Of a DNA stretch of 64,000 nucleotides, positions 10,362 to 47,165 are shown piece by piece. The number at the start of each line of letters is the position of its first letter. Position 1 is the first letter of the stretch. The notes beneath the pieces were generated by a model that worked only from the letters and a program-made list of their open reading frames with translations, had not been told where the DNA came from and did no database searches. The translations under genes were made by a program, and so were the position numbers. The DNA is taken from contig JADGNY010000006.1 in NCBI GenBank assembly GCA_017883235.1, forward strand, positions 1 to 64,000, read 5' to 3'. Origin of the DNA: Thermoanaerobaculia bacterium (GTDB taxonomy: Bacteria > Acidobacteriota > Thermoanaerobaculia > Gp7-AA8).

Positions 10362-10410
10362 AAATTCGCAGCCGGCTTCGCCGGCAAAGAGGCAGTAAGC
10401 AGCTTCACCA

Positions 10411-10898
10411 GAAGCAGTTGACTCGTTCCCAGAGTCAGTTACTCGTTCCCGGAGGCTGTTAACGGCCTCCGGGAGGCGGTTAAACTGCCTCTCGGAGGCA
10501 GTTAATACGCTCCTGAAGGCAGTTAACACGCTCCCGGAGGCAGTTGAACTGCCTCTCGGAGGCAGTTAACACGCTCCTGGAGGCAGTTAACACGCTCCCG
10601 AAGGCAGTTGAACTGCCTCTCGGAGGCAGTTAACACGCTCCTGGAGGCAGTTAACACGCTCCCGAAGGCAGTTGAACTGCCTCTCGGAGGCAGTTAATAC
10701 GCTCCTGGAGGCAGTTAACACGCTCCCGGAGGCAGTTGAACTGCCTCTCAGAGGCAGTTAATACGCTCCTGGAGGCAATTAACACGCTCCCGGAGGCAGT
10801 TGAACTGCCTCTCGGAGGCAGTTAATACACTCCTGGAGGCAGTTAACACGCTCCCGAAGGCAGTTGACGGACTCCGGGAGGCAGTTTGACTGCCTCCA
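10411..10898. repeat. 21-bp-period tandem array 1 (64-bp higher-order unit)
   Basis: Monomers of 21, 21 and 22 bp built on GGAGGCAGTTAACACGCTCC alternate in a fixed order. The palindromic third monomer (GAGGCAGTTGAACTGCCTC) recurs at 10479, 10543, 10607, 10671, 10735, 10799 and 10863, exactly 64 bp apart. The ends of the array are degenerate and the middle is nearly identical, as expected from unequal exchange. It fills most of the gap between the STN gene and the next CDS and carries no gene. Confidence 0.9.
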
Positions 10899-30780: not shown

Positions 30781-30824
30781 GCGTTGCGCCCTCCTTCCAG
30801 CGCGGGGAGGATGTACCACAAAAC

Positions 30825-30930
30825 TTCAGAAGTCCATCCTTCAGAAGTCCATCCTGACGGTGAGCGCAGCGAGCCGAAGTCCCATCCTGACGGCGAGCGT
30901 AGCGAGCCCTGTCAGGATGGGACTTCGGGA
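30825..30930. repeat. Imperfect palindrome, CATCCTGACGGCGAGCG family, copy 2
   Basis: Two direct copies of AGTCCATCCTGACGGTGAGC-like words face a right arm CCTGTCAGGATGGGACTTCGG. It lies in the shared upstream region of two divergent genes, 22 bp before the BMP lipoprotein start. Confidence 0.8.
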
Positions 30931-30951
30931 CGCGCAGTTACAATCCGCGCC

Positions 30952-31923
30952 ATGAAACGACTTGCCGTTCTGGCTCTGCTTCCCTTCCTTCTGCTCGCCT
31001 GCCCGCGCCGCGAGTCCGCCTCTTCGGCGATGAAGGTGGGCCTCCTCACCCCCGGCTCCGTCAACGACGGTGGCTGGAACGCCATCGCGTACGAGGGTTT
31101 GCAACAGATCCACAAACAGCTCGGCGCGGAGATCTCGAATCAGGAGACGAAGACGCCGGCCGAGATCGATGAAGGGTTCCGCTCGTACGGCGCGAAGGGA
31201 TTCGATCTCGCCTTCGGCCACGGCTTCGAGTTTCAGGACGCCGCGCTCAAAGCAGGGAAGCAATATCCGAAAACGATCTTCATCACCACCTCCGGCAGCT
31301 CTGTCGCGCCGAATGTCTCACCGATGGTGTTTCAGTTGGAACAGGCCACCTACCTGCTCGGCGTGATCGCCGCGCGCGAGTCGAAGAGCGGCAAGGCCGG
31401 GCTGGTCGGGGGCATCAACCTGCCGTCGATCGCATCGACGTTCCTCGCCTTCAAAGCCGGCGCGCAATCGGTGAATCCGAACTTCGAGGTGAAGGAGATC
31501 TACACCGGAAACTTCGATGACGCCGGCGCCGCGAAGCTGGCCACGCTCTCATTGATCAATGCCGGCTGCGACTTCATCTTCCATCAATCCAACGAGGCCG
31601 GCCGCGGCGTCTTCCAGGCCTGCCAGGAGCGCAAGGTCCGCTGCTTCGGCTCGAACAAGAATCAGAACGATATGGCTCCCGACGTCATCGTGGCCTCGGC
31701 GGTCCTCGACGTCCCGGGCGCATTCGTCTACATGGCCCGGCTGGTTCATGACCATCAGTTCCAGCCGCACGTCTACTGGCTCGGCATGCACGAGAACATC
31801 GTCTCGCTGGTCTGGAATGACAAGCTGAAGGCGGCGCTATCGCCGCAGACCGTGGCCGAGGTGACGCGCATCGAGGCCGATATCCGCAGCGGCAAGTTCG
31901 AAGTACCGCGCGGCAAGTTCTAG
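30952..31923 (+). CDS. BMP-family ABC transporter substrate-binding lipoprotein
   Basis: 323 aa. Lipobox LLAC at residues 14-17. The mature protein has the PnrA/Med fold of nucleoside-binding BMP proteins: VGLLTPGSVNDGGWNAIAYEGL, AKGFDLAFGHGFEFQDAA, GVIAARESKSGKAGLVGG, ADFIFHQSNEAGRG-like and YWLGMHENIVSLVWN. It captures a nucleoside or similar compound for the ABC importer downstream. The frame is open far upstream but ATG 30952 gives the lipoprotein signal. Confidence 0.92.
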   Translation: MKRLAVLALLPFLLLACPRRESASSAMKVGLLTPGSVNDGGWNAIAYEGLQQIHKQLGAEISNQETKTPAEIDEGFRSYGAKGFDLAFGHGFEFQDAALKAGKQYPKTIFITTSGSSVAPNVSPMVFQLEQATYLLGVIAARESKSGKAGLVGGINLPSIASTFLAFKAGAQSVNPNFEVKEIYTGNFDDAGAAKLATLSLINAGCDFIFHQSNEAGRGVFQACQERKVRCFGSNKNQNDMAPDVIVASAVLDVPGAFVYMARLVHDHQFQPHVYWLGMHENIVSLVWNDKLKAALSPQTVAEVTRIEADIRSGKFEVPRGKF

Positions 31924-31935
31924 TCGCCGGAGCTC

Positions 31936-32390
31936 ACGCTCTTACCGTGGCTCTTACCATGGCATGAGCGCGCGCTCCGTTTTGATCCTCGCGTGCTTCG
32001 TTTCGATCCTCGCGTGCTTCGTTTCGATCCTCGCGTGCTTCGTTTCGATCCTCGCGTGCTTTGTTTTGATCCTCGCGTGCTTTGTTTTGATGACCGTGTG
32101 CTTTGTTTTGACGCTTCCGCTCTTACCATGGTGAGAGTGCGCGCTTCGTTTTGACCCTCGCGTGCTTCATTTCGATGCTCGCGAGCTTCGTTTTGATGCT
32201 CGCGCGCTTCATTTCGATGTTCTCGTCCCTCGTTTTGATGCTCGCGAGCTCTGTTTTGAAGCTCGCGCTCTTACCATGGAATGAGCGCCCACTTCCTTTT
32301 CGAATCTCGCTCCTTCGGTGCAAGCATCTCTTGTTTCGTTTCGCTGCTCGTGTGCTTCGTTTCGAACCTCGCTTCTTTCGGGACCAGGCG
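31936..32390. repeat. 21-bp-period tandem array 2
   Basis: Degenerate units built on CTCGCGTGCTTCGTTTCGAT recur every 21 bp (for example at 31988, 32009, 32030, 32051, 32072). A second interspersed word, GCTCTTACCATGG, followed by TGAG and GCGC, marks block starts near 31939, 32119 and 32268. The array occupies the whole 500-bp gap between the BMP lipoprotein and its ATPase. Because 21 is a multiple of three, heptapeptide-repeat ORFs appear on both strands; I do not count them as genes. Confidence 0.85.
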
Positions 32391-32430: not shown

Positions 32431-33792
32431 ATGCGCCTGTCGCACATCACCAAGCGCTTCGGCGCAAACGTCGCCGTCGATGACGTTTCCCTCGACTTCG
32501 CGCCGGGGGAGATCGTCGGACTCGTCGGCGAGAACGGTGCAGGGAAGACGACCCTGATGTCGATCGCCGCCGGGGAGCTGGCGGCGGACGAGGGAACGAT
32601 CGAAGACCGCCTCGCCGCCGGGGTCGTCCATCAGCACTTTCTCCTGGTCAGTGAGTTCACCATCGCGGAGAACCTGGCGCTGGCGATGTGGGGCCGCAAC
32701 GCGGAGGAGATCATCCACGACTCCGGGATCGAGCTGCGCGACGTCAGCCGGCGCGTCGGCGATCTCTCCGTCGGCGAGAAGGCCAAGCTCGAGCTCATCA
32801 AGGCGATTGCCCGGCATCCGCCCGTTCTCATCCTCGACGAACCGACTTCCGTGCTGGCGCCGACGGAGGCGCGAGAGTTGTTCGATGTCATGCGCCGTCT
32901 CGCCGCCGCCGGCACGACCGTCATCTTCATCAGCCACAAAATCCCCGAGGTGCTGGAAGTGGCCACGCGCATCGTCGTCATGCGGCGAGGAAAGATCGTC
33001 GTCGACGGCGGCGTGATGAGCGCCGCGGAGTTGGCCGAAGCGATGGTGGAACGGCGGGCCAAACGTAGGTCGGACTCACGTAGGTCGGACTCTCTAGTCC
33101 GACCGGTGCTCGCGCGGGCGTCAACGACAGGCAGTCTATCCATTACCGATCTCCCGAGCACAGGTCGGACTGGAGAGTCCGACCTACGTAAGTCCGACCT
33201 ACGTATCGCCGGTATCGACGTTCATCGCGGCGAGATCGTGGCCATCATCGGCGTCGCCGGCAACGGGCAGTCTGAGCTGGCGGCGTCGCTACGCGATTCC
33301 CTCCGCGGACATGTCGCGCATATCCCCGAGGATCGCGCGCGCGACGGACTGATCACCCAGATGACCATTGCCGAGAACATCGCACTTGCCGAGCCTCGCT
33401 GGAGGCCGCGCGAAGCGGCGCAGAGAGCCGCCGCGCTCATCGAGCGATTCAACATCCGCGCGCAGTCGCCGCTGCAGCGCGCCGGCTCCCTCTCCGGCGG
33501 CAACCAGCAGAAAGTCATCCTGGCCCGCGAGCTTGAGCGGCAACCGGAGATCATCGTCGCCGCCGAGCCGACGCGCGGCCTCGACATCGAATCGACCCGG
33601 TTCATCCACGACGAACTGCGCGCCGCCGCCGGCCGCGGCGCCGCCATCCTTCTCATCACGTCCGATCTCGACGAAGCCTTTGCCCTCGGCGATGCCATTC
33701 ATGTGATCTATCGAGGGACGCTGAGCGCGCGGCTGACACCCGGTGACGCGGCAGACCAGGCGCCGATGTTGATGGCGGGGGTCGGAGCATGA
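32431..33792 (+). CDS. BMP-type ABC importer ATP-binding protein (two ABC domains)
   Basis: 453 aa, short for this ~500-aa family. First ABC domain: Walker A GENGAGKTT, Q-loop VVHQHF, signature LSVGEKAKLE, Walker B VLILDEPTSVL, switch His FISHK. Second domain: degenerate Walker A GVAGNGQSE without the Lys (usual for the family), signature SLSGGNQQK and Walker B-like IIVAAEPTRGLD. The linker, residues ~212-258, is encoded by a palindromic repeat (RRSDSRRSDSLVRP ... ESDLRKSDLR). Likely inserts two ATPase sites for nucleoside uptake. It overlaps the next gene by four bases. Confidence 0.93.
   Translation: MRLSHITKRFGANVAVDDVSLDFAPGEIVGLVGENGAGKTTLMSIAAGELAADEGTIEDRLAAGVVHQHFLLVSEFTIAENLALAMWGRNAEEIIHDSGIELRDVSRRVGDLSVGEKAKLELIKAIARHPPVLILDEPTSVLAPTEARELFDVMRRLAAAGTTVIFISHKIPEVLEVATRIVVMRRGKIVVDGGVMSAAELAEAMVERRAKRRSDSRRSDSLVRPVLARASTTGSLSITDLPSTGRTGESDLRKSDLRIAGIDVHRGEIVAIIGVAGNGQSELAASLRDSLRGHVAHIPEDRARDGLITQMTIAENIALAEPRWRPREAAQRAAALIERFNIRAQSPLQRAGSLSGGNQQKVILARELERQPEIIVAAEPTRGLDIESTRFIHDELRAAAGRGAAILLITSDLDEAFALGDAIHVIYRGTLSARLTPGDAADQAPMLMAGVGA
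33064..33205. repeat. Palindromic repeat inside the ABC ATPase gene
   Basis: CGTAGGTCGGACT occurs twice at the left edge (33064, 33078) and its reverse complement AGTCCGACCTACG twice at the right edge. The element sits exactly between the two ABC domains and keeps the reading frame, so it is translated. Confidence 0.88.
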
Positions 33793-34802
33793 GCCGTCTG
33801 TTTCGCCGACTCCGACCCCCGACACCCGACTCCCGGCTCCCCCGCATCGCCATCGCCATCGGCGCCGCCCTTCTCTCTCTCGTCCTTCTCGCCCTCTCCG
33901 GCATCGCCTTCGGCCACGCGCCCGGCGAGCTTCTTTCGATCCTGATCAGCGGCTCGGTCGGATCGAAGTTCGCGCTGGAAGGGACGCTTCTGAAATCCGT
34001 ACCGCTGCTCCTCACCGGCCTCTCGGTTGCCATCGCCTTCCGAGCCGGGGTCTGGAACATCGGAGGCGAGGGGCAGTTCCTGGCGGGTGCGCTCGGCGCG
34101 TTTCTCGGTGCGCGATACGGGATGGCCGCTGCATTGGCGGCATCGCTGATCGCCGGCGCGCTATGGGCGTCGATCGCCACGGCCATGCGGTTGTGGCGCA
34201 ACGCCCCCGAGGTGCTGACGACGATTCTTCTCAACTTCATCGCCATTCACCTCCTTGGCTACGCCGTCAACGGACCGCTGCAGGAAGCGAGCGGGAAGTA
34301 TCCGCAGAGCGACGTCGTCGCCGCGTCGCTGCCGGCGATCGGTTCGAGCGAGCTGCACGCCGGCATCGTCATCGCTGTCGTGGCCGCCATCGGAGCGTGG
34401 TTTCTGTTGTATCGAACGGCGGAGGGATTGCGGCTGCGCGCATCGGGATTCAATCGCTCCGCGGCGAAATGGGCGGGCGTCAATGTCGATGCTCAGCTCG
34501 TGCGCGCCATGGCTATCTCCGGCTCGATGGCCGGCCTGGCCGGGGGCATCGAGCTGCTCGGGGTCACGCATCGCCTCTTCGAGCGCTTCGCCGCCGGCTA
34601 CGGCTACGCCGGCATCGCCGTGGCACTCCTGGCGCAGCTCCACCCGCTCGGAACGCTGGCGTCGGCATTCTTCTTCGGTGCGTTGACGACTGGCGCGGGC
34701 GAATTGCAGAGGACGGCCGGGATTTCGTCGACCGTGGCGACGTTCGGCCAGGCGATCGTGATCCTGGCGATGATCGCGCTGACGAGGCGCAGGAACGCAT
34801 GA
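33789..34802 (+). CDS. BMP-type ABC importer permease 1
   Basis: 337 aa, about nine membrane helices, BPD_transp_2 family. Key segments: GVWNIGGEGQFLAGALGAFLGA and AGLRLRASGFNRSAAKWAGVNV (the EAA-like cytoplasmic loop). ATGA overlap with the ATPase gene. Codons 7-19 (RLRPPTPDSRLPR) come from the low-complexity word CGACTCCGACCCCCGACACC, a repeat type also found intergenically in bacteria, so the N-terminus may be a repeat addition. Confidence 0.92.
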   Translation: MSRLFRRLRPPTPDSRLPRIAIAIGAALLSLVLLALSGIAFGHAPGELLSILISGSVGSKFALEGTLLKSVPLLLTGLSVAIAFRAGVWNIGGEGQFLAGALGAFLGARYGMAAALAASLIAGALWASIATAMRLWRNAPEVLTTILLNFIAIHLLGYAVNGPLQEASGKYPQSDVVAASLPAIGSSELHAGIVIAVVAAIGAWFLLYRTAEGLRLRASGFNRSAAKWAGVNVDAQLVRAMAISGSMAGLAGGIELLGVTHRLFERFAAGYGYAGIAVALLAQLHPLGTLASAFFFGALTTGAGELQRTAGISSTVATFGQAIVILAMIALTRRRNA

Positions 34803-46816: not shown

Positions 46817-47165
46817 GTCAACAAAAATGTGTTGACGCCAACAAAACACCTGTTGACCGCAACAAGAGGTGTGTTGGCGGCAACACCCGATTTGTTGGCG
46901 GCAACATCCAACTTGTTGACGTCAACTCCGAGCCCGTTGACGGCAACAAACGAAGTGTTGGCGGCAACACCCAGGTTGTTGACGGCAACTCCGCGGGTGT
47001 GACGGCAACAAAGACTTTGTTGACGTCAACTCCGAACTTGTTGACGGCAACCCGGCGCGAGTTGACGCCAACTCGGCAGGTGTTTGCGCCAACTCGGCAG
47101 GTGTTTGCGCCAACTCGAGTCTTGTTGGCGGCAACTCGATGTTTGTTGCCGGCAACTCGAAACGG
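46817..47165. repeat. 21-bp-period tandem array 3 with palindromic core
   Basis: Sixteen units with core GTTGRCGNCAAC (often the perfect palindrome GTTGACGTCAAC) plus a variable 9-bp spacer begin at 46831, 46852, 46873 and so on to 47145, strictly every 21 bp apart from one 1-bp deletion at 46999. Spacers differ between most units; two consecutive units share CTCGGCAGG. The region 46470-47642 otherwise holds only toxin relics and a GGCGAGACGCC repeat. Confidence 0.92.

Follow-up and report, generated by a model that had tools for sequence, protein, structure and literature searches.

A REPIN-type element in the inter-domain linker of an ABC ATPase gene from the Acidobacteriota

The window, that is, the whole 64,000-nucleotide stretch of DNA that was analysed, comes from a genome of 246 contigs (G000) and contains a BMP/PnrA-type transporter operon consisting of a Bmp substrate-binding protein, a two-domain ABC ATPase and a permease. 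The genes and domains are listed below; the start codon of the Bmp gene was picked by eye.

30952-31923 (about), + strand: PnrA-like substrate-binding protein (Bmp), upstream partner; PF02608, 187.6 bits
32431-33792, + strand: two-domain ABC ATPase gene of the BMP/PnrA (nucleoside or B6-like) transporter type, 453 aa; open ORF
32431-33051, + strand: first ATPase domain, residues 1-207; Pfam, orthologue alignment and AlphaFold2 model; dN/dS 0.11-0.13
33208-33789, + strand: second ATPase domain, residues 260-453; Pfam, orthologue alignment and AlphaFold2 model; dN/dS 0.10-0.12
33789-34802, + strand: permease, downstream partner; PF02653, 124.7 bits

The permease start overlaps the ATPase stop. 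Pfam matches ABC_tran in two stretches of the ATPase (138.7 bits), the first domain carrying GENGAGKTT, which we take to be the Walker A motif, together with what is presumably the DEPTS motif, and the second carrying LSGGNQQK, presumably the signature motif. The best NCBIfam match is NF047930, ‘putative B6 ABC transporter ATP-binding protein’, which the ATPase matches at 282.6 bits, below the model's cut-off of 670. The Bmp and BPD_transp_2 neighbours support the transporter type but not a particular substrate. Outside the linker, dN/dS is 0.11 to 0.12 over 388 codons. Two congeneric sisters, recognised by the sequence they share, are G001 (Acidobacteriota bacterium CP_BM_ER_20) and G002 (Thermoanaerobaculia bacterium Chersky.9_17), and residue changes confined to one lineage number 9 in that of the window, 8 in G002 and 7 in G001. 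By these sequence comparisons both domains are conserved, purifying selection acts on them and the window lineage shows no acceleration, so that the ATPase looks functional unless the insertion described below is very young. In an AlphaFold2 model based on 14 sequences (mean pLDDT 77.3, pTM 0.51), both domains are folded with fair to high confidence and flank residues 208-259, which have a pLDDT below 50. The insert is therefore modelled as disordered, as expected for a loose linker; the low score arises partly because the insert has no homologues in the alignment.

This linker is encoded largely by a palindromic element with the following parts.

33063-33205, + strand: whole inserted element, a REPIN with duplicated ends, encoding residues 212-259; exact words, layout and inverted repeat
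33065-33076, + strand: outermost left GTAG arm, in a 15-bp tandem with the next arm; exact GTAGGTCGGACT
33078-33189, + strand: complete inner REPIN, in the order outer arm, loop, inner arm, spacer, inner arm, loop, outer arm; alignment with the copies on C90 and C48 of the genome
33080-33091, + strand: left GTAG arm of the inner REPIN; exact GTAGGTCGGACT
33096-33104, - strand: left inner arm AGTCCGACC of the first REP hairpin; element layout and inverted repeat
33105-33162, + strand: spacer separating the REPs, part of the element and not of the host; homologous spacers at other sites in the genome
33163-33171, + strand: right inner arm GGTCGGACT of the second REP hairpin; element layout and inverted repeat
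33176-33187, - strand: right GTAG arm of the inner REPIN, reading AGTCCGACCTAC on the + strand; exact GTAGGTCGGACT
33191-33202, - strand: outermost right GTAG arm, in a 15-bp tandem with the previous arm; exact GTAGGTCGGACT

The original prediction described a full palindrome with paired words at 33064-33205, placed between two ABC domains and open throughout, and the analysis agrees. All four GTAGGTCGGACT words are exact, two on each strand, where 0.14 matches with up to one mismatch would be expected and four were reached in 0 of 100 shuffles. The arms form a 56-nt inverted repeat (33057-33112 and 33155-33210) that is 91% complementary, the ORF at 32431-33792 crosses the palindrome with no stop and no frameshift, and the predicted peptide (...ESDLRKSDLR) reads as given. 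The two ABC_tran stretches and the AlphaFold2 model place the palindrome between the domains. Its GTAGGTCGGACT-loop-AGTCCGACC units are GTAG-headed palindromes, and the inverted pair is predicted to form one long hairpin, both as RNA (-107 kcal/mol, z -12.9 against shuffles) and as DNA (z -12.0). Two of the six frames are stop-free, one per strand, and the palindromic symmetry of the element gives them almost identical peptides. The spacer encodes SLSITDLPS, which had resembled a domain strand; it is 87% identical to the spacer of the copy at C90 and 84% to that at C48 in the same genome, and so belongs to the element. This match to other REPIN copies rules out a spacer derived from the host's former linker, with a separate REP on either side of it. 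The 15-bp tandem copies are perfect at both ends, encoding RRSDS twice on one side and SDLRK then SDLRI on the other, and could have arisen either through a tandem duplication or because the element inserted into an older single REP. Duplicated ends are also found in other copies (L009 and L018 in the window's genome; L119, L126 and L137 in G002). From its layout and its relatives, the 143-bp palindrome at 33063-33205 is confirmed as one REPIN-type element and not a chance palindrome.

The description of the repeat as mobile in style has likewise held up, since it belongs to a dispersed family. The exact 12-mer GTAGGTCGGACT occurs 55 times in the window's genome, compared with 0 for the reversed-word control, and is present in 9 of the 60 genomes searched: G002 has 95 matches, seven others have one each, and the sister G001 has none. 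A BLAST search of the window's genome with the element, in which hits on both strands were counted, returned 95 pieces at E values of up to 1. At 31 other loci in this genome the layout AAC-[GTAGGTCGGACT-CTCY-AGTCCGACC]-spacer-[GGTCGGACT-GGAG-AGTCCGACCTAC]-GTT recurs, and the family also includes single hairpins and broken copies. A candidate transposase is found in G002, where contig C55 encodes a 165-aa Y1_Tnp protein (PF01797, 24.7 bits against a cut-off of 23) flanked left and right by GTAGGTCGGACT REPINs, as the available text of PMC3116915 and PMC8266576 leads one to expect for a RAYT and its REPs. PMC8266576 also describes the cleavage of REP hairpins in vitro by E. coli TnpAREP. No such gene was found in the window's genome among eight of its nine PF01797 matches (L032 to L039; the ninth, on C181, was left out). 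A scan of these eight loci for the core GTCGGAC/GTCCGAC found none at five and isolated copies only, without a GTAG-headed REP, at L032, L035 and L039. The nearest homologue of the G002 RAYT in the window's genome, on C71 (51% identical), is surrounded by a different palindrome, GGCACAGACA...TGTCTGTGCC. With the eight scanned loci lacking GTAG-headed REPs and C71 carrying a different palindrome, none of the RAYT candidates examined in the window's own genome is accepted as the mobiliser, and we infer that the family is mobilised in the genus by a RAYT-type transposase. At the C71 locus (L038), the RAYT-like gene is flanked by GGCACAGACAAGAGTGTCTGTGCC palindromes (about 1070-1280 and 1830-1860), probably another REP family with its own transposase. 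Another RAYT homologue, 64% identical to that of G002, lies in G011 (L142) with GTAGGGCCGGCTCTCCAGCCGGCCC on either side (1418 and 1980), the same layout with another palindrome.

The comparison with orthologues lacking the repeat that was originally proposed was carried out with 12 ATPase orthologues. The repeat is absent from all 12 linkers, which differ in sequence and length; no linker sequence common to distant orthologues, the finding named in advance as one that would refute the original claim, was seen among them. At 64 residues the window's linker is the longest of the 13, the others ranging from 18 to 63. The host protein had been described as shorter than its family, which holds only against curated models of about 500 aa: at 453 aa the ATPase is longer than the matched stretches in G001 (421 aa) and G002 (437 aa), so the insert lengthens the protein. 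That the repeat has made the host short is not supported, since short linkers are, on these alignments, a trait of the clade. Similarly, the supposed replacement of the normal linker is partial. The addition of 142 bp (47 codons) brought a net gain of 31 residues over G001, which leaves about 16 residues of the G001-type linker without a clear counterpart. The exact ABC-linker insertion was found in one genome only. The linker of G002 is also longer than that of G001 and carries a GC-rich stretch which, used as a DNA query at E up to 0.01, gave 41 matches in G002, 53 in G001 and 11 in the window's genome; in most of the top-scoring ones the repeat covers roughly the first 49 bases of the stretch. 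On the reverse strand this stretch starts with CGTAGCGCCGGCGG and folds into two hairpins. Since it is a different dispersed repeat, this one linker has apparently received a repeat of a different family in each of two sisters, while being short in G001.

Copies of the family are also found in other genes. In the window's genome, 7 of the 33 elements examined lie in frame within conserved genes (the window copy, L007, L008, L009, L020, L021 and L025), the hosts being the ATPase, DnaE, PBP1C (pbpC), a geranylgeranyl-reductase-like flavoprotein, an FG-GAP protein and two glycosyltransferase-type membrane proteins. L020 and L025 are single REPs or half-elements only, the aligned protein of L025 has no extra length over its G001 and G002 orthologues, and L021, whose Pfam hits lie downstream, was counted by orthologue alignment. 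Open copies with no Pfam family (L005, L006 and L018) or with a family only downstream of the element (L028) were not counted, and other open, unscanned frames were left out of the seven. For G002, 31 elements in 29 loci were read among the matches listed, and 5 of them (L118, L127, L133, L136 and L139) are in frame within conserved families, namely the flavoprotein, PheT, DnaX, a Y-family polymerase and a YdiJ-like iron-sulphur protein. Those not counted have no Pfam family (L116, L126 and L128), have a family hit away from the element (L131 and L132) or were unscanned (L117, L120, L122, L130, L135 and L137); the G002 dnaE copy (L072) came from a separate search and is outside the 31. Four host genes were assessed by orthologue alignment, and the reductase site by flank match only, whereas the PheT, DnaX, Y-family polymerase and YdiJ-like hosts were judged from family models alone; for three further hosts, PDB sequence searches added little. 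The element lies between domains in the ATPase, DnaE and PBP1C and, by domain coordinates, also in DnaX and the YdiJ-like protein. The pheT copy (L136, G002:C48, 641-743) is a REPIN with an internal duplication. L005 in the window's genome and L122 in G002 are REPINs that share a site near a gene start, both lying immediately upstream of the same gene at an equivalent position.

Two intragenic sites are filled in both species. The dnaE element sits directly after QSSLFG at the same place in the window's genome and in G002, and is absent in G001, G003, G010, G012 and G013; the site in the geranylgeranyl-reductase-like flavoprotein is also filled in both. Between the two species, 3 of 55 aligned element positions differ at the dnaE site and 3 of 62 at the flavoprotein site, whereas the dnaE flanks are 83.4% identical (16.6% differing). 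Six differences in 117 positions have a binomial probability of about 1e-4 at an assumed 17%. Among half-elements, the base after AGTCCGAC, adjoining the inner arm, is C in 33 of 34 from the window's genome and in 2 of 65 from G002; each dnaE copy follows its own species' base, and the spacers differ between species. Given this species-specific signature and these spacers, simple inheritance alone is not an easy account of the shared sites, and re-insertion or conversion may have taken place.

Our preferred reading, to which we give a probability of roughly 0.85, is that a REPIN inserted in the variable inter-domain linker, mobilised by a RAYT-type transposase, and is translated as a neutral, flexible spacer. 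The element is dispersed and missing from the sister linkers, and it leaves the frame open between two conserved domains. The two inverted GTAG-headed REP palindromes and their spacer would have been moved by a RAYT-type transposase of the genus into the DNA for the linker, where they would be read as about 47 hydrophilic residues. Tolerance of the insertion can be explained by a linker that is variable and probably unstructured, by a stop-free frame on each strand of the element and by a net length that keeps the frame. An open frame is not remarkable in itself, since stop-free frames average 2.5 of 6 both over 17 complete elements of the window's genome and over 26 of G002; survival within a gene needs an open frame, a frame-keeping length and a tolerant site, and selection probably did no more than remove gene-breaking insertions. 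No sign was seen that the element gives the ATPase a special function. Points against this reading are the very stable hairpin that the insert would add to the mRNA (-107 kcal/mol), which could lower expression, the restriction of this exact insertion to one genome, and the negative search for a cognate RAYT among the loci scanned in the window's genome. The original view of repeat DNA becoming protein is thus well supported as far as the repeat being part of a coding gene is concerned (a dispersed repeat, absent from orthologues, between conserved domains); its translation we infer from the sequence.

A broader reading, which we hold only tentatively and consider rather unlikely, makes the REPIN family a standing source of translated linker DNA in the genus, with intragenic copies rewritten in place by conversion or re-insertion while their hosts stay functional. 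It draws on the shared dnaE and reductase sites, on the species signature in dnaE and on the two repeat families in the ABC linker. If rewriting in place were true, a mobile element would be driving protein segments to evolve in concert.

Less probable again is that the element acts as an RNA or DNA hairpin in the operon, through ribosome stalling or mRNA processing between the halves, and so tunes the downstream permease genes, the peptide being a by-product. The predicted folds (-107 kcal/mol and z -12.9 as RNA, z -12.0 as DNA) would suit such a role. The scarcity of differences at the shared dnaE and reductase sites relative to the dnaE flanks would suit it too, but recent or homogenised copies also predict high arm identity. 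Moreover, the family occurs in unrelated genes and at intergenic sites, which does not suggest one regulatory role, and a strong mid-gene hairpin is more likely to be tolerated than selected. Alternatively, a very recent insertion could have disrupted transporter function and left the gene in early decay. We find this improbable: the four perfect 12-mer outer arms are consistent with recency and the insert is absent from the congeners, but the ATPase ORF has no stop or frameshift, the window lineage has no excess of changes (9 against 8 and 7) and the partners in the operon are still recognised by their family models. Short-read assembly can be misled by palindromes, and the perfect 15-bp tandem copies at both ends might above all be an artefact of a 246-contig assembly, but this is very improbable given the duplicated ends of five other copies and an intragenic dnaE site present in two separate genomes.

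The REPIN insertion favoured here is a kind of event that has already been published, to judge from the available text of PMC3733652 (BMC Genomics 2013) and of accounts of the RPEs of Rickettsia; the additions made here are the group of hosts, the location in an ABC linker and the comparison between sisters. The accessible passages of PMC3733652 describe GTAG and CGTC REPs within ORFs of several species, more than half of the intragenic ones as dimers or groups encoding 20 to 30 residues, and many in replication and repair genes, including dnaE of R. conorii. Intragenic cases are given there for O. terrae, R. conorii, Thauera, Thioalkalivibrio, Xanthomonas and others, and the one passage on Acidobacteria in that text concerns TIR-flanked transposases. 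The elements studied here share with those REPs the GTAG-tagged, often paired palindromes within ORFs, the 20 to 30 or more residues encoded, the frequent location in replication and repair genes and the association with a RAYT. They differ in host group, being from Acidobacteriota (Thermoanaerobaculia relatives), in the ABC ATPase linker and in the availability of sisters with empty and filled sites. As in the REPINs of PMC3116915 (PLoS Genet. 2011), so far as its available text goes, an inverted REP doublet with a spacer forms one hairpin, the doublet is taken to be the replicating unit and there is a RAYT partner; those REPINs were defined from extragenic space, whereas a sizeable minority here is intragenic. 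The window copy itself lies within a gene and so lacks the extragenic location that gives REP its E; the accessible text of PMC3733652 counts intragenic GTAG REPs in the super-family and does not treat extragenic location as defining. RPEs (Ogata 2000, 2002, as described in available parts of PMC3733652 and of PMC10969869, a review of in-frame RPEs of Rickettsia) are in-frame palindromes in unrelated proteins, some reported to be expressed. On that description the present elements work like RPEs, 7 of 33 in the window's genome being in-frame insertions in conserved proteins, and the likeness is one of behaviour and not of identity: the host is different and these are GTAG REPINs with a RAYT. 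A literature search on REPIN/RAYT and intragenic REPs in Acidobacteria gave no report of intragenic REPs in Acidobacteriota among the matches listed.

These cases, from a little-studied phylum, show that palindromes linked to a transposase are able to turn into open stretches of conserved protein-coding genes. Sister species with an empty or a filled site allow comparison, and the dnaE and reductase sites, filled in two species, offer a way to ask whether intragenic REPINs persist by inheritance, re-insertion or homogenisation. To judge from the ABC linker, a single permissive position may accept repeats of different families in different species.

The window contains several other repeats. 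Just before the Bmp gene (30824-30933), GAAGTCCATCCTGACGGCGAGCGCAGCGAGCC is directly repeated and also has an inverted partner; this is another kind of short palindromic repeat. Between the Bmp and ATPase genes (31950-32380), a 21-bp unit, CGCGTGCTTCGTTTTGATGCT, occurs about 14 times in blocks with CTCTTACCATGG. Further away, a tandem array at 10408-10886 has a 64-bp unit in 7.1 copies with 92% matches, and arrays of 21-bp units such as TGTTGACGGCAACACCCGACT, each with a short palindrome, occupy 46819-47160.
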